Source of the DNA: Natronorubrum sediminis
Lineage (GTDB): Archaea; Halobacteriota; Halobacteria; Halobacteriales; Natrialbaceae
DNA length: 64,000 nucleotides
Reading direction: 5' to 3'
Assembly (NCBI RefSeq): GCF_900108095.1
Contig: NZ_FNWL01000002.1
Span: 1,206,691 to 1,270,690 of the forward strand
Made by a program: the position numbers and the translations under genes
Shown: piece after piece, positions 45,419 through 55,746 of the stretch
Numbering within the stretch: the stretch's first letter is position 1
Layout of the letters: every line of letters starts with the position of its first letter
The notes under the pieces: model-generated
The model's input: only the letters and a program-made list of their open reading frames with translations
Told to the model about the DNA's origin: nothing
Database searches by the model: none

Positions 45419-46444
45419 ATGAACCGGAGCAAAGGCTATCTGCTGGTGCTCGTCACCATCTTTGCGTACCTCTCGTGGCAACTCGTGACGCCGTTCTTAC
45501 AGTTCGTTCTCGCTGCCGTGCTCATCGCGTTCGTGCTCTACCCGCTACAGCGTCGACTCGAGAAACACGTGGGACCAACGATTTCGGCGTTCGTCTTGCT
45601 CCTGGTGGCGATTGCCGGTTTTATCGTTCCGTTCGTGCTCGTGGCCGCGATGATCGCCGACGACGCGGTCAGAATTCTCCAGAATGCCGACGCGGAGACG
45701 CTCCAACTGACGGAAATCGAGGACCGCATCGAAGAGCAGGTCGGACTCGACGTCGACATCGCTGATTCCGTGATGGACTCGGCTCAAGAGATCGGGACGA
45801 TTCTGCTCGAGCGCTCGACGGAGTGGTTCAGCATGCTCACGCACACGCTGATCGGCCTCGGACTTACGCTCTTTCTCATCTACTATCTGCTCAAGGACGG
45901 CGACAAACTGATGACGTGGCTCCGGGACAAGACGCCACTTCCCGAGGACGTACAGGACGACCTCTACGGCGAACTCAACGAAGTCATGTGGGCCGTTCTC
46001 GCCGGACACGTCCTGATCGCCATCATCGAGGGCGTCATCGCCGGATTGGGGCTGTTTGCGACCGGAATTCCCAACGCGGGCTTCTGGACGTTCGTCATGG
46101 TGGTCCTCTCGCTCGTCCCGCTGATCGGTGCGCCGCTGGTCTGGATTCCGGCGTCGATCTACCTCCTGATGATCGGCGAACCCATCCTCGCGCTCGCGCT
46201 GGCGATCTACAGCGCCATCGTCGTCGGCATTGCCGACGACTACCTCCGGCCCATCGTGGTCGATCGCTACGCCGAGATCAGTCCCGCCGTGATCATCCTC
46301 GGCGTCCTCGGCGGCATCTACGCGTTCGGCATCATGGGGCTCTTCTTCGGACCCGTGATCCTCGGCGCGTTCCTCGCGGTCGTCGACGTCATCGACGAGA
46401 ACTACGACCGACTCGGGGGCGATTCCGAACCGAGGGAGACGTGA
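45419..46444 (+). CDS. AI-2E family (UPF0118) transporter
   Basis: 341 residues from the ATG at 45419. About eight spans with a charged cytoplasmic block (DADAETLQLTEIEDRIEEQ-like region) after the first three. Signature stretches are GLGLTLFLIYYLLKDGDKL, LIAIIEGVIAGLGLF and PLIGAPLVWIPASIYLL. Family members include AI-2 exporters and Na+/H+ antiporters; in a haloarchaeon the latter is as likely. Starts upstream at 45341 and similar are not supported by a membrane-first layout. Confidence 0.9.
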   Translation: MNRSKGYLLVLVTIFAYLSWQLVTPFLQFVLAAVLIAFVLYPLQRRLEKHVGPTISAFVLLLVAIAGFIVPFVLVAAMIADDAVRILQNADAETLQLTEIEDRIEEQVGLDVDIADSVMDSAQEIGTILLERSTEWFSMLTHTLIGLGLTLFLIYYLLKDGDKLMTWLRDKTPLPEDVQDDLYGELNEVMWAVLAGHVLIAIIEGVIAGLGLFATGIPNAGFWTFVMVVLSLVPLIGAPLVWIPASIYLLMIGEPILALALAIYSAIVVGIADDYLRPIVVDRYAEISPAVIILGVLGGIYAFGIMGLFFGPVILGAFLAVVDVIDENYDRLGGDSEPRET

Positions 46445-46575
46445 TTCGTGACCGGTAGTCGAGGGTGCAATTCATTTCGACCTCGAAGGGATGATCGACG
46501 ATGAGACCAAGCTCGCCGAACAGTGAATAGCTGTCAGAATTCGATAATATAGTTTTGTGATGCTCACTGTATCGT

Positions 46576-47736
46576 GTGCTTTCCACCGTGACAGATATAG
46601 TACCAACAGTCGTTACAAACGCTGTGCGTCGACGTGACATACTCGGGACGATCTCCACGGCTGCGATTGTAAGTTCGGTGAGCGGGTGCACTCAATCGAC
46701 GGTCGAGGAGGGAACTCGTCTCATCGGCTCGTACCCCGGCGACGACGCCACCTCACCGGAACGCTATCGCCCCTTCGAGAAGTGGCTCGAGACGCGCTTC
46801 GGCGTGCTCACGCTCTACGTGAACGCGGACGACGACGAGCGTGTCCGCCAGAACTTCCTCTCGGGACTAACGGACGTCTGGCAGACGGGTCACGTCCCCA
46901 TGGTGACCTGGCTTTCTTACGTCGATTCGGAGTCGGAGACGCCGTCGACGATCACACGCCAGATCCGCGATGGTGAGTACGACGCTGTCCTCGAGTGGTG
47001 GGTGGACGAACTTTCGGCGTGGTTGGCGGCCGACGACCCAGTGATCGACGGGCCACGCCGACTCTATTTTAGGCCGTTTCCGGAAATGAACGGGGACTGG
47101 CTTCCCTGGAGCGTCCTCGAGGACGACGACGTCGAACCGTTCGTCGACGCGTGGCGCTACGTTCACGAGCGGTTGATGGACGCAGTCGATGCGGACGATC
47201 CACGTGAACGCGTCCAGTGGATCTGGAATCCGAACGCAACAGAACACACCGACGTTCCAACCGAAGCGAGTTATCCGGGTGAGGAGTACGTCGACTGGAT
47301 CGGAATCGACGGCTACAATTTCGGTGATAGTTCGATGGGAGACGGCTGGCAGTCGCCGGAGTCAGTTTTCGAACCGATGCGAACCAGGCTCGCCGATCTC
47401 AGCGATCGACCCGTATCGATCCCCGAATTTGGATCGACGTCCGTCAGAGACGGTGAGCACGACGTATCCGCCAAAGACGAGTGGATCGACGATGTCTTCG
47501 AGTACATCGAGGCGAACGATATCCGAATGGTATGTTGGTTCAACATCGACAAGGAAACCGACTGGGCGGTCTTCGGCGGTGCTCGCGGCACGGATACGTT
47601 CGAAGACGAACGCAGAGACGAACGTTATCGCGTCTACGATAGCTTTCGGGAACGGGTCCAGCGGGGTGACTACGTCGGCGGAAGCACCCAGACGCCCGGC
47701 GTCCTCTCGAGCAATCACTTCCAGGGCCGGTTTTGA
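46576..47736 (+). CDS. GH26-like glycoside hydrolase, Tat lipoprotein
   Basis: 386 residues from the GTG at 46576 (46588 and 46624 are also possible GTG starts; no ATG fits). The RRRDILG segment followed by a hydrophobic stretch and SVSGC is a twin-arginine lipoprotein signal. The barrel shows YFRPFPEMNGDW with E170 as acid/base and VSIPEFGS with E284 as nucleophile, the GH26 (beta-mannanase) pattern. It is probably lipid-anchored outside. It is convergent with the polysaccharide operon, 110 bases from its last stop. A GATAATATAG box is at about 46543-46552. Confidence 0.85.
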   Translation: MLSTVTDIVPTVVTNAVRRRDILGTISTAAIVSSVSGCTQSTVEEGTRLIGSYPGDDATSPERYRPFEKWLETRFGVLTLYVNADDDERVRQNFLSGLTDVWQTGHVPMVTWLSYVDSESETPSTITRQIRDGEYDAVLEWWVDELSAWLAADDPVIDGPRRLYFRPFPEMNGDWLPWSVLEDDDVEPFVDAWRYVHERLMDAVDADDPRERVQWIWNPNATEHTDVPTEASYPGEEYVDWIGIDGYNFGDSSMGDGWQSPESVFEPMRTRLADLSDRPVSIPEFGSTSVRDGEHDVSAKDEWIDDVFEYIEANDIRMVCWFNIDKETDWAVFGGARGTDTFEDERRDERYRVYDSFRERVQRGDYVGGSTQTPGVLSSNHFQGRF

Positions 47737-47846
47737 GTGACGACACGAGAGCTACCGCGATCACGGCGATACTCGATCAGGTCGCCCTCGAGTCAGTCAC
47801 GGAGGGAGACTCGTACTCTGAGATGTAAACCGACTCAGTGCACTCG

Positions 47847-49532
47847 TTATTCGGTTTCGTTGTTCTCGAGTGAAAACCGATAGGTGTCAATCTCGCCGTG
47901 CTCGTAGTACTCGTACTCCGCCGCTGCGGCCTCGAGGTCGGTGATCCATTCGTCCTCGTGTTCGTACGCCTGCGGGGCGACGACCCAAAATTGGGTTCCG
48001 TCACCGGGTGTCTCAGCGAGTGCAGTTTCAGTCTCATTGATCGTCTCCTCCGGCGAAACGAACGGATCCTGTGAATCACCGACTGCAGCGTCGGGCGGAT
48101 CCAGCACGGTTTCGGGCGGCCGATCCGTATAGGCGACGAGCGCGTCTGCAGTATACCCCGGCGTGACGAAAATTGGTTCGTCCGGACTCGCGTCGACCGT
48201 CGCTGCCGTTCCCGGCCAATCTTCCTGCGTCTCCGCACCGACGTAGACGCCCGCGGAAGCGACTAATCCGACGAGCAGGAGTGTTACGAGAAGCCAGCGG
48301 AGTGAACGCCGGTCGATCCGAGTCACTCCGTGTGCGGCGACCAACGCGAGACCGCCGAGCGAGACGAACGCGTACTCGAGGTGAAAGACCGGTACGAAGA
48401 CGTGCGAAATGACGTACGGAGCCAAAATCGGGACGAAAGCCCAACACAGGACGACGTACTCGCGTTGAAGGTAGGTTCTGACGACAGTGTCGTCGGCGTT
48501 CGCGTCGCCTGAACGAACGATTCGCTTCGTCACGATTGTACGGTCGTCGTCGGGTTCCTCTGCGGTGAACGGTGCGTTTTGGTGCCACTCGCGGACGTTT
48601 TCCGGCGTGTAGGTGATGAACGAGTACGCCCCGAGCACCACGAGACAGCCGAGGACGACGATAGAAAGGGTGTGGCTGACCGGATCGTGAACGGCGAATG
48701 GGTAGGTCGCAAGCCTCCCGGCGTACACGAGGAGCGTCTGAGCGAACTGGCCCAACGTTGGCGGCGCGAACCACGAGAACGGTTCGGTGTTCCCCAGACG
48801 AACGTGCCAAACGAACGTTCCGAGCCACGGGAGCGATCCAACGACGATCAGCGCCTGCGCTGTGAGCCACGCTCGACCCGGGATTCGATCTGGCCACCCT
48901 CGAGGGAGTATCCATCGAACGACGAGGACGTTGTGCGCGAGGATGACGAACACTCCGGTGACGTGAGTACAGACGAGCAACACGCACGAGAGTACGTATC
49001 CGGCCCACACGGTCCGCGAGCGATCCCCGGATAACAATCGCGCAAAGAAATAGAACGAGAGTGTACTACAGAGAAACAACAACGCGAGGAAACGGGCTTC
49101 CCGCGAGTACTGAATGTGGAGTGGTGAGAGCGCGAGAACGAGAGCAGCGAGAACGCCGACGCGTCGGTCGAACAGCACACGTCCGGTCGCGTACAGGAGG
49201 TAGACCGAGGCAACCCCACAGAGAACCGAGAACGACCTGGCGAGGAAGGTTGTCGAACCGACGAGTCCGAGCCACCCCTGTACGAGCATGATATGCAGCG
49301 GCGATTCGGGGACGTTGCCCGCGACAATCGCTTCGATCGTACTCGAGGGGTTGGGTGTCCATCCCTCGAGGGCTGCGATTTCGTCCAACCAGAGGCCGTC
49401 CGTCGTCAGTCCGTGAAACCGGATGACGCCGGCGAGGAGCAAGACGATGGCCATCGATAACTGCGGCCAATACGCGACGAGAACGTCCGACACACGCGAA
49501 CGCGACAGCACAATGGAAGAATCGACTGCCAT
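47847..49532 (-). CDS. GT39/ArnT-like membrane glycosyltransferase
   Basis: 561 residues. About ten to twelve spans. The catalytic first-loop acidic pair is D50-E51 in GLWLDEIAAL, as in GT39/GT83 polyprenyl-sugar enzymes. The last 110 residues (after about 450) are a soluble beta-alpha part with a GYTADALVAYTD segment. It uses a lipid-linked sugar to decorate a polymer or protein outside. Last gene of a three-gene unit: its ATG overlaps the TAA of the GT2 gene by one base (TAATG). Confidence 0.9.
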   Translation of the reverse strand: MAVDSSIVLSRSRVSDVLVAYWPQLSMAIVLLLAGVIRFHGLTTDGLWLDEIAALEGWTPNPSSTIEAIVAGNVPESPLHIMLVQGWLGLVGSTTFLARSFSVLCGVASVYLLYATGRVLFDRRVGVLAALVLALSPLHIQYSREARFLALLFLCSTLSFYFFARLLSGDRSRTVWAGYVLSCVLLVCTHVTGVFVILAHNVLVVRWILPRGWPDRIPGRAWLTAQALIVVGSLPWLGTFVWHVRLGNTEPFSWFAPPTLGQFAQTLLVYAGRLATYPFAVHDPVSHTLSIVVLGCLVVLGAYSFITYTPENVREWHQNAPFTAEEPDDDRTIVTKRIVRSGDANADDTVVRTYLQREYVVLCWAFVPILAPYVISHVFVPVFHLEYAFVSLGGLALVAAHGVTRIDRRSLRWLLVTLLLVGLVASAGVYVGAETQEDWPGTAATVDASPDEPIFVTPGYTADALVAYTDRPPETVLDPPDAAVGDSQDPFVSPEETINETETALAETPGDGTQFWVVAPQAYEHEDEWITDLEAAAAEYEYYEHGEIDTYRFSLENNETE

Positions 49533-51040
49533 TATTCGGTGGCTGAGTCGTCGGCTTCTCGTTGATCAATTCGCTGTGCGTGCGTCCAGTCGAGGTCCCG
49601 ATCGGAGACGACGTCGAACAGACACTTGAGGTTCAACGCATCGTGAAAGTGCTTGTATCCGATAACGAAAAGAGGCGCGTAGATGATCAACCGCCAGTCC
49701 TCGCCCTCGATGAGAATGCCGAGCGCTGCGATGAGGACGATGATGCTCGTAAAGAAGACGAACAGTGCGAGCACCTGAACGACCTGTCCGACCAGGAGCA
49801 ACCAGGCGATGAACCCAAGTATAATCCAGGTGGCGACAGGCAAGAAGAACAACTCGACCAACCGAAATGGAACCGCAAGTCGATGAAGGAGCCCGTAGGA
49901 GGAGTCGACGACCACCCGAATGTGCTTGAACAAGGTCATGTAGTTACCGCGATACCACCGGAGTCGCTGGTTGTAAAGCGACGTCCAGGTGTCCGGAGCC
50001 TCGGTATAGACGCGGGCATCGCTAACGGAAACGCGATACCCTGAGCGGAGTATTTTCATCGTCACGTCAAAGTCCTCGGTTAGCGTCTCCGGATCGTACG
50101 CGAAGACGCCCTCAATCGCCTCGCGGCGATACGCGCCGAGACACCCTGGAACGATCAGAACGATGCCGAAGTAATCGAGCATTCGACGGTAGATGTTGAC
50201 CCCGATGGTGTACTCGAGTTGCTGACAGCGCGTGATCAACGAGTTGCGGTTCCAAATCGTCACGTTACTCGCGACGGCACCAATTTCTGGATTCGACGCG
50301 AACGGCGCGACGATCTGTTTGAGGGCGTCGGTTGCGACGATGCTGTCCGCATCGGCCGTGACGATAACCTCCCCTTCGGCGAACAGTAGTCCGTAGTTGA
50401 GAGCGGAGTACTTGCCGCCGTTTTCTTTCGTCACGACGCGAACTCCGTCGGATTCGAACGAACGTGCTTCCTCGGCCGTTTCGTCCGTACTTCCGTCGTC
50501 GATAACGATGATCTCCAATTGTTCTTCCGGGTAGCGCGCCTCGAGTAACGACGCGACCGTTCGACCGACGTAGCCGGCCTCGTTGTACGCCGGAACGAGA
50601 ACGGTGATCGACGGAAACGGTGGTGACGGAGTGAACTTCGCGTGATCGACCTGATCGTGATAGAGTGCGATGAGGGCAATGAACCAGTAGTACACGAAGA
50701 TGAGTGCAATCGCGAAGAGGTGAACGAACTGGATGGGAGTTGGATAGACCCAGCCAATCGTGACGACGCCGATCGCATAACCGCACAGAACGACCACCAG
50801 TGCCCCGACACCGAAGACATCTCGGTACCACGGTCTGTACATAACCACGTAGTACGACCACCCGACGTAACAGGCCATGATCAGTCCGAATCCAGCGACC
50901 GCGTACACCGAGCCATCGTCCATTACGCCGGCGAGCAACCAGAACGGAAGCAACGCCGAGAGAAACAACGCGACCGAGAGCCACCTGACTGACCGAAGTA
51001 TCGACCAAAGTCGGAAGCCGACGGTTTGAGGGGATTTCAT
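49532..51040 (-). CDS. Processive GT2 polysaccharide synthase (PgaC/IcaA-like)
   Basis: 502 residues. Four N-terminal spans, a GT-A domain (about 140-370) and three C-terminal spans. Motifs: DDGS at 181-184, DAD at 230-232, TEDFD at 321-325 and QRLRW at 358-362, the D,D,D,QxxRW set of processive beta-glycan synthases. IcaA/PgaC make poly-N-acetylglucosamine; cellulose- and hyaluronan-synthase-like alternatives exist. Overlaps by one base with both neighbours (deacetylase upstream, GT39 downstream), so translation is probably coupled. Confidence 0.93.
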   Translation of the reverse strand: MKSPQTVGFRLWSILRSVRWLSVALFLSALLPFWLLAGVMDDGSVYAVAGFGLIMACYVGWSYYVVMYRPWYRDVFGVGALVVVLCGYAIGVVTIGWVYPTPIQFVHLFAIALIFVYYWFIALIALYHDQVDHAKFTPSPPFPSITVLVPAYNEAGYVGRTVASLLEARYPEEQLEIIVIDDGSTDETAEEARSFESDGVRVVTKENGGKYSALNYGLLFAEGEVIVTADADSIVATDALKQIVAPFASNPEIGAVASNVTIWNRNSLITRCQQLEYTIGVNIYRRMLDYFGIVLIVPGCLGAYRREAIEGVFAYDPETLTEDFDVTMKILRSGYRVSVSDARVYTEAPDTWTSLYNQRLRWYRGNYMTLFKHIRVVVDSSYGLLHRLAVPFRLVELFFLPVATWIILGFIAWLLLVGQVVQVLALFVFFTSIIVLIAALGILIEGEDWRLIIYAPLFVIGYKHFHDALNLKCLFDVVSDRDLDWTHAQRIDQREADDSATE

Positions 51041-52413
51041 TAGAACAGCACGCTCCGGATTTCAGTCCACGGGTTCGGTGTGATCGACTGTGAGGAGTCA
51101 TCGTCCGCAGTTTCGCTCACAGTTTCTTCGATCGGTTCGAGAACCCGCCATCCGTCGTCCGTTTCTTCGATATCACCCGACTCGAGGCCATCACCGAACT
51201 GTTCGAGCGTCATGAACGTGACGTCGTCTGTCGCGTTCATGTGCTCGATAAGCGATCGCAACATCTCGAGTTGGTCCTCGCTCGTGAAGTACTGGTAGTG
51301 AAGCATTTGGACGTACGGTTCGTTGTCTTCGACGGCCTCGTCGAACGAATCTGTCAGCGTCTCGAGGTCGTGGAAGGGGACCTCGTCGGAGTCGTTATCC
51401 GCGTTCGACCAGTCCTCGAACGCCTGCGTCTCTGGCACGTGTGTGATACCGTCCTTCACAAACGGCGCTTCCTCCTTGTAGTACGCTGACGTGAACCACT
51501 CTCCCCCAGAGACGATCGGATACCCCTCCTCGACGAGGACTTCCACCGTGTTGTCATCGTACGTGTTCATTGGCGGAATGAACGTCTGAGAGGGTCTATC
51601 GACGCAGTCGTGCATGATCTCCTCACCAGCGACGAGCCATTCGTGTTGGGTCGTGATCGAGACGTTCCCGAACTCACTTCCGTTGTAAAAATCGGTCTGT
51701 TCTTCGTGTGTATATCCGTGAATCGCCATCTCGAATTGGTCGGGATACTCGGACTCGAGTGAGCGGAGGTACGAGCAGGTTTCGTCGTCGTCGGTAATCG
51801 CGTTCTCACCGGCTACCTTTGGGATGATCCCGAGCGTAACGGGAACTTCCTCGTCGATGAACACCTGGTCGACGGCTCGCATCTCTTCTTGGTTGTACCA
51901 CGGCTGAATGTCGTCGTTCCTGAAGATGACGATCGTCTCGTGTGTTTCCCACGACCGATCGACTGATTGGTGGTCGCTCGATTCCGAATCGAGTATCGTG
52001 CTGACCGAGACGGTGCCAGCGATTCCAGCCAGCAGGATGGCGATGACCAGCGCCGAGACCATCAGTTGCTGTCCGCGCTCCGTGTTCGGTCGATACCGAT
52101 CCGGGATCCAAGACAGTTCACCACCGGGCGTCGGCGTCGGTAGATCCGGAAACTGAATCCGTCTATTCGTAGCCGGTGTTTCCTCCGTTTCTCCCTCGAG
52201 TTCGAACCGCCGTCCGCACTCGAGACACCGGCATACGGAATTGACCGCGTTCAGGTCTCCAAGCGGTTCAGCGTGGCCACACTTCGGACACTCTCCCTCT
52301 TCGAAAACCGTTATCGGTCCAACGTGCCCACAGTCGTGTTCAACGATTCGTTCAGTAGTTAGCCTGAGAGAACCACACCGTTGGCATCCCTCATTCGGAC
52401 CACCAGTCATCAC
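51040..52413 (-). CDS. DUF2334-like polysaccharide deacetylase with N-terminal zinc-ribbon head
   Basis: 457 residues. CQRC (10-13), C28, CPKC (42-45) and CRCLEC (61-66) form cytosolic zinc-ribbon-like knuckles before a single span (about 117-140). The exterior half is a deacetylase barrel: IFRNDDIQPW with D167-D168, TLGIIPKVAG, and HGYTH with H232 and H236 as the metal set. Family enzymes remove N-acetyl from surface polymers. First gene of the operon; the ATG is about 27 bases after a TGATTACAAAAC box. The ribbons facing the cytosol are unusual for an exported enzyme. Confidence 0.88.
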   Translation of the reverse strand: MMTGGPNEGCQRCGSLRLTTERIVEHDCGHVGPITVFEEGECPKCGHAEPLGDLNAVNSVCRCLECGRRFELEGETEETPATNRRIQFPDLPTPTPGGELSWIPDRYRPNTERGQQLMVSALVIAILLAGIAGTVSVSTILDSESSDHQSVDRSWETHETIVIFRNDDIQPWYNQEEMRAVDQVFIDEEVPVTLGIIPKVAGENAITDDDETCSYLRSLESEYPDQFEMAIHGYTHEEQTDFYNGSEFGNVSITTQHEWLVAGEEIMHDCVDRPSQTFIPPMNTYDDNTVEVLVEEGYPIVSGGEWFTSAYYKEEAPFVKDGITHVPETQAFEDWSNADNDSDEVPFHDLETLTDSFDEAVEDNEPYVQMLHYQYFTSEDQLEMLRSLIEHMNATDDVTFMTLEQFGDGLESGDIEETDDGWRVLEPIEETVSETADDDSSQSITPNPWTEIRSVLF

Positions 52414-52805
52414 AATGTCAATACCCAGATCCGGGTTTTGTAATCACCTACATACAACCTGGTAATTCTGCTTTTTTCTCTCATATTTGTAATTGGGGTA
52501 AAAACACAGCATAGGAGCCTAGAATCGTTCGGTTTGATCTCACCGATTTTCGATACAACTCCCAATATGAAATATATAAATCACATTCTGCCATAAGGTT
52601 CTCGACGCTAGACCATTTATTTACATATCCTAGATAGATCATCTAGCTGTATTTCGTTTGGACGATTATCAGGCGACTGAGAGAGATGAAGTCGAATTCC
52701 TTCAGCAAGAATACACGAGTTGCTCCGAGGAGCCACCCCGGGGTGAGGCGAGTGAAGCGATTCGCCGCGCTTTTGGCCTGTGAGGTCGGATACTCTCTCA
52801 CGCGA
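52414..52805. other. AT-rich intergenic region upstream of the polysaccharide operon
   Basis: 392 bases, markedly AT-richer than the window (runs such as GAAATATATAAATCA and CATTTATTTACATATCC). It holds the operon promoter on the minus strand (about 52433-52445) and, at the right, the plus-strand promoter GCTTTTGGCC for the MiaB-like gene. No gene is seen. The low GC suggests insertion or relaxed composition around a transferred block. Confidence 0.65.
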
Positions 52806-54059
52806 ATGGCCCGGTATCACATCGAAACCTACGGCTGTACGTCCAATCGCGGCGAGAGTCGCGAAATCGAGCGACGGCTCCGTGACGCGGGCCATCACCA
52901 GGTCGAGGGGCCAAGCGAGGCCGACGTCGCTATTTTGAACACCTGTACGGTCGTCGAGAAGACCGAGCGAAACATGCTCCGCCGGGCCGAGGAGTTAGCC
53001 GACGAAACCGCCGATCTGTTCATCACGGGCTGTATGGCCCTCGCACAGGGCGAGGAGTTCGCGAAGGCGGAAGTCGACGGCCAGGTGCTCCACTGGGACG
53101 AAGTCCCCGAGGCCGTCACCAACGGCGAGTGTCCGACGACGACCCCCGACGCCGAACCCATTCTGGACGGCGTCGTCGGCATCCTCCCCATCGCTCGAGG
53201 CTGTATGTCTGATTGCTCGTACTGCATCACGAAACACGCCACGGGCAAAATCGACTCCCCCTCCATCGAGGAGAACGTCGAAAAAGCCCGCGCGCTGATC
53301 CACGCCGGCGCGAAGGAGATCCGAATCACGGGCCAGGACACCGGCGTCTACGGCTGGGACGAGGGCGAACGCAAACTCCACCGCCTGCTCGAGCGAATCT
53401 GTGAGATCGAGGGCGACTTCCGCATCCGCGTCGGCATGGCCAATCCGAAGGGCGTCCACGGCATCCGCGAGGAACTCGCTTCGGTCTTCGCCGAAAACGA
53501 CGAACTCTACAACTTCCTGCACGCCCCCGTCCAATCCGGGTCGGACGACGTACTCGGCGACATGCGTCGTCAACACCAGGTCTCCGAGTATCTCGAGGTC
53601 ATCGAGACGTTCGACGACGCACTCCCATACTGGACGCTCTCGACGGACTTCATCGTCGGGTTTCCGACCGAAACGGACCACGATCACGCCCAGTCGATGG
53701 CCTTGCTCCGCGAGACGCGCCCGGAGAAGGTCAACGTCACCCGCTTCTCGAAGCGGCCGGGGACCGACGCCGCCCAGATGAAGGGACTCGGCGGGACGAT
53801 CAAGAAGGAACGCTCGAAGGAGATGAGCGCCGCCAAGCGCGACATCGTGGGTTCGGCCTACGAGGACATGGTCGGCGATACGCGCACGGACTGTCTGGTC
53901 GTCGAAGAGGGCACCGCAGACTCCGTCAAATGTCGCGACGCGGCCTATCGGCAGCTCATCGTCCAGCACGCGAGCGAGTACGGCCTCGAGCCCGGCGATT
54001 TCGTCGACCTCGAGGTGACGGCCCACGAGACGATGTACGCGTTCGGCAAGCCGATCTGA
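52806..54059 (+). CDS. Archaeal MiaB-like tRNA methylthiotransferase (t6A to ms2t6A)
   Basis: 417 residues from the ATG at 52806. The N-terminal UPF0004 domain has C11, C47 and C76; the radical-SAM cluster is C133, C137 and C140 (CMSDCSYC); a TRAM-like C-terminal domain ends with EVTAHETMYAFG. This is the CDKAL1/MtaB-type enzyme that adds a methylthio group to t6A37 of tRNAs, cytosolic. The start at 52806 is chosen because the preceding 40 residues of the open frame have no domain match and a GCTTTTGGCC box is about 27 bases upstream. Confidence 0.93.
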   Translation: MARYHIETYGCTSNRGESREIERRLRDAGHHQVEGPSEADVAILNTCTVVEKTERNMLRRAEELADETADLFITGCMALAQGEEFAKAEVDGQVLHWDEVPEAVTNGECPTTTPDAEPILDGVVGILPIARGCMSDCSYCITKHATGKIDSPSIEENVEKARALIHAGAKEIRITGQDTGVYGWDEGERKLHRLLERICEIEGDFRIRVGMANPKGVHGIREELASVFAENDELYNFLHAPVQSGSDDVLGDMRRQHQVSEYLEVIETFDDALPYWTLSTDFIVGFPTETDHDHAQSMALLRETRPEKVNVTRFSKRPGTDAAQMKGLGGTIKKERSKEMSAAKRDIVGSAYEDMVGDTRTDCLVVEEGTADSVKCRDAAYRQLIVQHASEYGLEPGDFVDLEVTAHETMYAFGKPI

Positions 54060-54079: not shown

Positions 54080-55746
54080 TTACGACGATGACGACATAAC
54101 CCACTCCCGAATCTCGCCGTCGACGACGACTTCCTCCCCGACATCGTCGAACGTGATACCACCGTAGGCCACGCTGCTCTCGGGTCCCGAATAGATGCCC
54201 ACGGTGCCACACTTCGCCGCTCGAGCGGTCGTTAGTGTCGCCTCGGCGTTCTCCCGGAATCGGAACGCCTGGTGGTCCGCACCACTCGCTGTAACCGTGC
54301 TCAGCTTCAGGTCGTCCATATCGTCGAAGATAATCGAATTCGTGAACGGGCCGTCGACGATGAGGTTCGAAATTGAGGTGCCGTCGAATCCGCTCGCGTA
54401 CAGCCCCGAACCCGATGCCAATTCACTGTCGTCAGTTCTGATCGTGACGTTCGTGATCGTCAGCGCTCGCCGTCCGCTCTCGACGTGACCCAACGAAATG
54501 CCTCTCGCGTTGTCGAGACACGAGACGCCTTCGATCGTCAGATCGTCGATTAGATCGCCAGGGTCCGACCTGATGGCCGAGTGTCGACAGCCGGTGACGT
54601 GGCCATCCGAAATCGTGATCGACTCGTTTCCGTCGCGGTGGATGTGGATCCCGTACTCCGGATCGTTCGTCGGATCGATTTCGAAGTTCTTCAGGGTACA
54701 GTTGCTGGTCGGGGTGCCGTCGTCGTTCGCACGCGCATCACGTTTCCCGTCCCAGATCCCGTTCGCAGCCGTCCCGGAGACCTGATTGTCGAACTGAATC
54801 GGCGCGTCCGAGTCGCCCTCCCCGCCACACGTCGCCCAGTAGCCGTCCACGACCACGTTTTTCGACGAGACGACGTCGATGTGGTGGTAGTAGATGGCGT
54901 CGCCGTAGATCTGTTCTAGCCGGACGTTCTCCGCGTGTGCGGGCAGAATTCCGTTCGTCGCCGGCGAGTCGATCCGGACGTTACAGACGCCCCAGTTCGA
55001 CGCGCCGTCGTACCCGCCCGCGTCGTAGCCCACGTTGGAGAGGAGCGCAAACCCTTCGTTACCATCTGCGCGCACCCCCTCGAGGACCGTCGAGCGACCG
55101 GCACCAAGTACAATCGTCTCGTCACCAATCAGCGGCGTCCGCTCGAGGCGGTACCGTCCGGGCGGGAAGTACACGATACCGCCCCCGGCCTTGGCGACCG
55201 TCTCGAGGAGATCGTGGACGGTCTGTCCGACGTCAGTTGTGCCGTCACCTTCGATGCCGTGTGCCTCGACGTTCCAGACGGGAGTTTCCTCGGTCCGTGC
55301 GTCGACGAGACTCGCCGTTTCGACGCTCGTCTCCTCGAAGTAACTCGTTCCAGGTACCGGATGGTCGGCGCTTCCGCGACCGCCGAAATACGCCCAGTCC
55401 TCGCTCGAGGCATCCCAGCGCCAGGTGATCCCCTGGTCGGTCGCGTGGTAGAGTTCGTCATCGTACTCGCCTTCTACCGGCCGGTCGGCGATGGGCCCAC
55501 GAACCAGTGCGTGCTCGTCGAGCGCCTCGACCGTGTCAGTGTGATCCCACTCGTCTCCCGGCTCGTACGTCCCCAATCCGAGTCGCGGCGTTTCGTCGGC
55601 CACACTCAATCGGCCCCGTATTCGTTTCCGTACGCCGCTCCGTATCCGGCTCGGGTGGCCGAGAGTTCCGAACAGCCTGCGAGAGCCACACACCCGCCCG
55701 AAACGGCGACGAGAAGGTCTCGCCGCCGTAGCTCGGTACGTTTCAT
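54080..55746 (-). pseudogene. Beta-helix (pectate-lyase-like) Tat lipoprotein, frameshifted after its signal
   Basis: Body: an open frame 54080-55693 of up to 537 residues. A pectate-lyase-superfamily start (HGIEGDGTTDVGQTVHDLLE, FPPGRYRLERTPLIGDETIV) is followed by repeated right-handed beta-helix turns (NVRIDSPATNG..., ITNVTIRTDDSEL, ISNLIVDGPFTNS). Signal: a separate frame 55606-55746 encodes MKRTELRRRDLLVAVSGG then CVALAGC, a Tat lipobox, and ends in TGA. The two overlap but are one base out of phase near 55606. A TATA-like TCTTTATGCG about 27 bases before 55746 shows that the signal start is used. So either a one-base indel broke the gene, or the sequence has an error, or a -1 frameshift joins them. 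Confidence 0.78.

Follow-up and report, generated by a model that had tools for sequence, protein, structure and literature searches.

A probable exopolysaccharide synthase module of haloarchaea with a zinc-ribbon deacetylase and a lichenase-like GH26 lipoprotein

We analysed a 64,000-nucleotide stretch of the Natronorubrum sediminis genome (assembly GCF_900108095.1, contig NZ_FNWL01000002.1, positions 1,206,691 to 1,270,690; hereafter, the window), which contains a compact four-gene block that probably directs the synthesis of an exopolysaccharide (Table 1). Three genes on the minus strand, which encode a deacetylase, a membrane glycosyltransferase of family GT2 and a GT39-type transferase, converge across a gap of 110 bp on a plus-strand gene for a GH26 lipoprotein. 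Successive minus-strand genes share single bases (49532 and 51040), in agreement with the original prediction, which was made from the DNA letters and their open reading frames. All four Pfam assignments exceed the curated cut-offs.

Table 1 Features of the four-gene block and its flank in the window
Feature	Position	Strand	Evidence
GH26 twin-arginine translocation (Tat) lipoprotein, 386 aa	46576-47736	+	PF02156 Glyco_hydro_26, 48.2 bits (cut-off 20.2)
GT39/PMT_2-type GT-C transferase, 561 aa	47847-49532	-	PF13231 PMT_2, 46.1 bits (cut-off 26.1)
Predicted processive membrane GT2 synthase, 502 aa	49532-51040	-	Pfam Glycos_transf_2, 115.2 bits (cut-off 23.3)
Membrane-anchored deacetylase, 457 aa	51040-52413	-	PF10096 DUF2334, 84.6 bits (cut-off 26)
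TackOD1-type zinc-ribbon domain of the deacetylase (by sequence)	52204-52395	-	CxxC-EH-CG-CxxC-CxxC
Single transmembrane helix of the deacetylase, residues 117-135	52009-52065	-	Hydropathy; helix 112-141 in the model
CE4-fold (DUF2334) domain, predicted extracytoplasmic, residues ~153-427	51133-51957	-	Model and Foldseek
Divergent intergenic region between the deacetylase and MiaB genes; probable promoter region, by composition	52414-52805		AT-rich, 43.7% GC

The GT2 protein has the hallmarks of a processive synthase. The D, DxD, ED and Q(Q/R)xRW motifs are present, the corresponding residues (D182, D230, D232, E322, D323 and Q358-R359-x-R361-W362) are invariant in 33 sequences, and the AlphaFold model (predicted local distance difference test (pLDDT), 90.7) has a membrane-channel fold, from which we infer processivity. 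The best Foldseek match of this model is Xenopus hyaluronan synthase 1 (8smn; template-modelling (TM) score, 0.67), followed by the hyaluronan synthase of a Chlorella virus and by bacterial cellulose synthases. The best NCBIfam match is PgaC/IcaA (TIGR03937), but at 188.6 bits against an equivalog cut-off of 422 we rejected membership among the poly-N-acetylglucosamine (PNAG) synthases. Identity with the cellulose synthase BcsA was rejected as well, given the lack of a PilZ domain and a score of 67 of 699 bits with TIGR03030. The gene is single-copy in its genome, in which the next paralogue reaches 63 bits in a partial-length match.

The deacetylase comprises a cysteine-rich N-terminus with a zinc ribbon, one transmembrane helix and an outer DUF2334 domain; hydropathy and the model (pLDDT 84.3) predict that the N-terminus lies inside the cell and the catalytic domain outside it. 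Foldseek places the model among CE4 polysaccharide deacetylases (best match 3rxz, E = 1.9e-12). Residues D167, D168, H232, H236 and H372 are invariant in 20 sequences, and the D-H-H metal site (D167/D168, H232 and H236) accompanies the CE4 fold, although the PF01522 profile gives 14.6 bits, below its cut-off of 23.1. The GT39 protein carries a conserved WLDE motif in its first outer loop, consistent with the GT39/PMT_2 assignment; such DE motifs are typical of transferases that depend on polyprenyl-phosphate sugars. A sequence search of the PDB returned no relative of either the deacetylase or the GT39 protein.

For the GH26 protein, the predicted Tat lipoprotein nature and catalytic pair are borne out by a twin-arginine stretch (RRRDIL), a lipobox (VSGC) and the acid/base E170 and nucleophile E284, both invariant in 41 aligned haloarchaeal rows. 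The description of the hydrolase as mannanase-type fell away, because its nearest solved relative is a lichenase: the GH26 family profile scores 158 bits with CtLic26A and 68 bits with the best mannanase. We thus rejected a beta-1,4-mannanase, an assignment that also sits poorly with the synthase neighbourhood. Sorokin and colleagues placed more than 100 GH26 proteins of haloarchaea in a clade that has very little homology to confirmed mannanases (PMC10963439), and the window GH26 very probably belongs to that clade, a placement inferred without rebuilding their tree.

Membrane synthases are the regular neighbours of these hydrolases. When convergent GH26 pairs were taken as one, 28 of 31 GH26 loci, from several families, had a membrane GT2 gene within 2 kb. 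In 17 loci the partner is a PgaC-like GT2 at most 1.8 kb away, and in 11 it belongs to a second QRxRW membrane GT2 family (c4, PF13632) at most 160 bp away. At one further locus, a weaker GT2 relative lies 2.7 kb away, and at two there is no adjacent synthase; both of the latter genomes encode a zinc-ribbon deacetylase and GT2 elsewhere. Two convergent GH26 genes adjoin one c4-type GT2 in one genus (L053:9633-12413 and L054:9140-11469).

The residue before the acid/base glutamate follows the type of synthase. Classical GH26 enzymes have a histidine in this position. Lic26A retains it, whereas the window GH26 has Pro169, as do all 18 rows of the GH26 type linked to PgaC-like GT2s, including two without an adjacent synthase. 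Across all 27 rows with an assigned partner, proline accompanies a PgaC-like GT2 and histidine a c4 GT2, a correlation that is consistent with co-specialization of hydrolase and synthase. We considered three independent switches of residue and partner, but a single origin of the Pro169 form was not rejected in a tree test (approximately unbiased test, p-AU 0.60), and the correlation therefore provides no independent replication.

Among 391 Halobacteria genomes, GH26 occurs in 35, the deacetylase in 34 and the GT2 subfamily (>290 bits) in 49. The zinc-ribbon deacetylase is arranged head-to-tail with the GT2 in Natronococcus, Natrialba, Natronorubrum, Halobiforma, Salinadaptatus, Halalkalicoccus, Halobium and others, and the two are neighbours in Natrialbaceae, Halalkalicoccus and Haloferacaceae-type loci. 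A search for the whole block in other haloarchaea had been named beforehand as a check, and it found the genes together rather than scattered. The same four-gene order is present in a near relative (G120), in a distant congener at a different genomic site (G293, locus L073) and in Halogranum rubrum (L011/L074), with the GT39 gene in the same position in the latter two. The full block is present in three lineages and is not unique to the window. Identities to the window proteins in G293 and Halogranum, respectively, are 48% and 37% for the deacetylase, 67% and 57% for the GT2, 38% and 31% for the GT39 protein and 51% and 46% for GH26, so that all four genes rank their relatives alike. A third GT2 branch of the same subfamily pairs with another CE4-type deacetylase, of family PF01522 (L123:8868-11706, L125 and L126), which suggests repeated recruitment of deacetylases.

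Several neighbouring genes were recorded at these loci. In G293, the four-gene block has next to it a gene for a GH18 chitinase with CBM5/12 and fn3 domains (L073:13295-15103). A UDP-glucose dehydrogenase gene lies beside the GT2-deacetylase pair in Halalkalicoccus or beside a GH26-c4 pair in sister genomes (L008:10629-11936, L065:6446-7750 and L088:8553-9845), as if two polymer modules had been swapped at one site; these positions are a hint that the chain may contain uronic acid. In many Natrialbaceae, genes for a response regulator with an HxlR helix-turn-helix and for histidine kinases are divergent from the deacetylase-GT2 pair (L001:5417-7682 and equivalents), which would fit regulated production of the polymer.

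The zinc ribbon of the deacetylase, a feature that was absent from the original prediction, probably links this block to a wider family. Residues ~1-65 hold the pattern CxxC-EH-CG-CxxC-CxxC, in which ten residues are invariant among 22 sequences. A comparison with full-length TackOD1 proteins in hhalign gave a probability of 99.0% (E = 2.5e-18), whereas PF18551 (cut-off 32 bits) scores 17.9 bits for the window copy, which holds the zinc-ribbon half only, and 33.7 and 33.6 bits for homologues in the genome of L011. On sequence grounds, the ribbon is probably a TackOD1-type domain. It also occurs as a standalone small open reading frame directly upstream of the GT2 at 9 or 10 loci, most of which have GH26 and lack the fused deacetylase. 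A search across 242 Halobacteria genomes gave 22 hits that consist of the ribbon only, 21 of them beside a PgaC-like GT2. The same search gave 27 longer hits; of those retrieved, almost all are full-length TackOD1-like proteins of ~325 amino acids, with a C-terminal extension that is conserved and neighbours that are mostly unrelated (L093:9456-10565, L094-L107 and L111). A general link between TackOD1 and GT2 was accordingly rejected for these proteins; the link holds for the form with the ribbon only. The window's own genome encodes one full-length TackOD1 protein (G000:C2:113995).

TackOD1 (PF18551) was described as an output domain of response regulators (REC), with a function called obscure, and it also occurs in thaumarchaeal type IV pilus loci (Galperin 2018, PMC5847659). 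In two Dehalococcoidia genomes, the gene just upstream of PilB (T2SSE with MshEN) encodes a TackOD1 protein, and a third genome has such a protein next to a pilin-like gene (loci L146:2815-7092, L147:3337-6298 and L145:4732-7186). In a fourth, it lies directly upstream of a GT2 that is 42% identical to the window GT2. By analogy with PilZ in bacteria, these arrangements suggest that TackOD1 may serve several surface machines as a common module for control or docking. A more specific proposal, which we put forward tentatively and regard as possible rather than probable, is that the ribbon is an archaeal counterpart of PilZ and MshEN that acts on polysaccharide synthases of haloarchaea and on the type IV pilus ATPases of Dehalococcoidia (and in the thaumarchaeal pilus loci), physically coupling synthase, deacetylase and a GH26 trimmer of a new type.

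The block occupies the interval between the AI-2E transporter and MiaB genes (window 46444-52806), which ranges from 0.3 to 11 kb in sister species; two congeners have almost nothing there (0.34 and 0.63 kb), and three have other sequence. In G116 the interval is rearranged, with GH26 alone beside MiaB and the deacetylase-GT2 pair on another contig. Given this variability in congeners, the block is an insertion into a variable site. No repeats indicative of a mobile element were found on its flanks, and no tRNA gene was found in the window. The composition had been read as AT-richer than the surroundings and as a sign of transfer. The GC fraction is 0.621 in the window, 0.597-0.606 in GH26 and GT39 and 0.563-0.566 in the deacetylase and GT2 genes, so that the AT bias is real chiefly in the last two genes; transfer is partly supported by the patchy distribution and the variable site.

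Given the gene order, the motifs, the folds and the recurrent linkage of the GT2 with the zinc ribbon, the deacetylase and GH26, the block is probably an exopolysaccharide module of the synthase-dependent kind. The GT2 would polymerize a UDP-sugar in the cytoplasm and thread the chain through its own membrane channel, at the outer face of which the membrane-anchored deacetylase may strip acetyl groups from the chain. The cytoplasmic TackOD1-type ribbon could dock on or regulate the synthase, probably tethering the deacetylase to it. The GT39 protein would add a sugar from a polyprenyl-phosphate donor and so decorate the polymer, and the outward-facing GH26 lipoprotein, as a putative endo-hydrolase, would cut, trim or release the chain, a role played in bacteria by BcsZ, PgaB or PelA. 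An alternating beta-1,3/beta-1,4 polymer would suit a GT2 like hyaluronan synthase and a GH26 like lichenase, but this is a guess. The paper on the mixed-linkage glucan synthase of Romboutsia does not mention GH26.

Some observations weigh against this module. Most loci lack GT39, and 14 haloarchaeal GT2 relatives are without any of the four partners (3 of these 14 have the other CE4 enzyme), which makes the parts optional. The residue-169 correlation may reflect one evolutionary event, the deacetylase could serve another glycan, and the activities and the product are predicted from the genes. Moreover, many loci entered the comparison on account of one of these genes; bias is lower in the adjacency counts and in the genome-wide search for zinc ribbons.

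Three other explanations have to be weighed. The block might instead resemble the ArnC-ArnD-ArnT pathway for 4-amino-4-deoxy-L-arabinose (L-Ara4N), the GT2 charging polyprenyl phosphate, the CE4-like enzyme deacetylating the product and the GT39 protein transferring the sugar to a lipid or S-layer glycan. The same three enzyme classes are involved, ArnD (8t0j) is among the fold matches of the deacetylase (E = 1.1e-8), ArnC-type GT2s match the GT2 catalytic domain, and the nearest other GT39 genes adjoin genes for Mannosyl_trans4 and an epimerase. However, the QRxRW motif and the fold of hyaluronan and cellulose synthases in the GT2 are at odds with this role, as is a deacetylase domain that follows a transmembrane helix and is predicted to lie outside the cell; ArnD acts inside the cell. 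On these two grounds we rejected membership in the pathway itself. An Arn-like route would also leave GH26 without a role and depend on a GT39 that most deacetylase-GT2 loci lack, and we consider it unlikely.

It is somewhat less likely still that GH26 is a secreted beta-mannanase or beta-glucanase for plant polysaccharide that adjoins an exopolysaccharide operon by chance. GH26 mannanases do occur in haloarchaeal mannan utilizers (PMC10963439), and a pectate-lyase-like right-handed beta-helix protein (PF12708) is encoded near the block (window 54080-55693; no cluster match in the sister locus L010). Yet the block holds no other glycoside hydrolase gene for plant polysaccharide, the enzyme is a lipoprotein rather than free, and its weak scores with solved mannanases, its remote clade and the general linkage to membrane GT2s all point elsewhere. 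That linkage also counts against the most improbable of the three, in which a deacetylase-GT2 operon and a GT39/GH26 pair are unrelated neighbours joined in a hypervariable insertion site. The variability of the AI-2E/MiaB interval, the separated genes of G116 and the deacetylase-GT2 pair of L010, which lacks both GT39 and GH26, would all suit such an accident; the identical gene order at other genomic sites, with a similar rank of divergence for every gene, would not.

Much is known about synthase-dependent exopolysaccharide systems in bacteria. In the literature we found no archaeal module of this kind, and nothing on GH26 with exopolysaccharide synthases or on DUF2334 deacetylases, although coverage was limited and these negatives are no proof of absence. 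If the proposed module is correct, haloarchaea gain a defined and genetically testable polymer module, a large group of haloarchaeal GH26 proteins (PMC10963439) likely takes part in making polymer rather than in eating it, and TackOD1, the role of which was called obscure (PMC5847659), receives a first functional lead.

The module is not categorically new, as it would work like known synthase-dependent exopolysaccharide systems; what is new here is a lichenase-like GH26 in the place of the hydrolase, together with a DUF2334 deacetylase whose ribbon is of the TackOD1 type. The likeness to PNAG systems (PgaABCD and IcaADBC) that was originally proposed extends, by motifs, folds and neighbourhoods, to a processive membrane GT2, a CE4-fold deacetylase and a hydrolase (a domain of PgaB in bacteria), but it is only an analogy: the GT2 falls far under the PgaC cut-off, the deacetylase is a DUF2334 protein with a zinc ribbon, the hydrolase is GH26, a GT39 protein is added, outer-membrane parts are absent, and no gene like PgaD or IcaD was noticed in the block. 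Hyaluronan synthases and BcsA share the whole-chain fold, including the membrane helices, and the D, DxD, ED and QRxRW motifs with the GT2, which is ~17-20% identical to them, lacks PilZ and has other partners. The predicted trio of GT2, CE4-like and PMT-like enzymes recalls the Arn pathway, from which the block would differ by a processive GT2, an outer deacetylase and the added GH26. The GH26 protein shares its domain and two catalytic glutamates with the haloarchaeal 'clade I' (PMC10963439) and with CtLic26A, its best PDB match, yet it has Pro169 for the canonical histidine and is linked to synthases rather than to catabolism. Finally, the ribbon has the cysteine spacing and EHxCG motif of the zinc-ribbon half of TackOD1 (PF18551), but here it is fused through a transmembrane helix to a deacetylase or stands alone beside a GT2.

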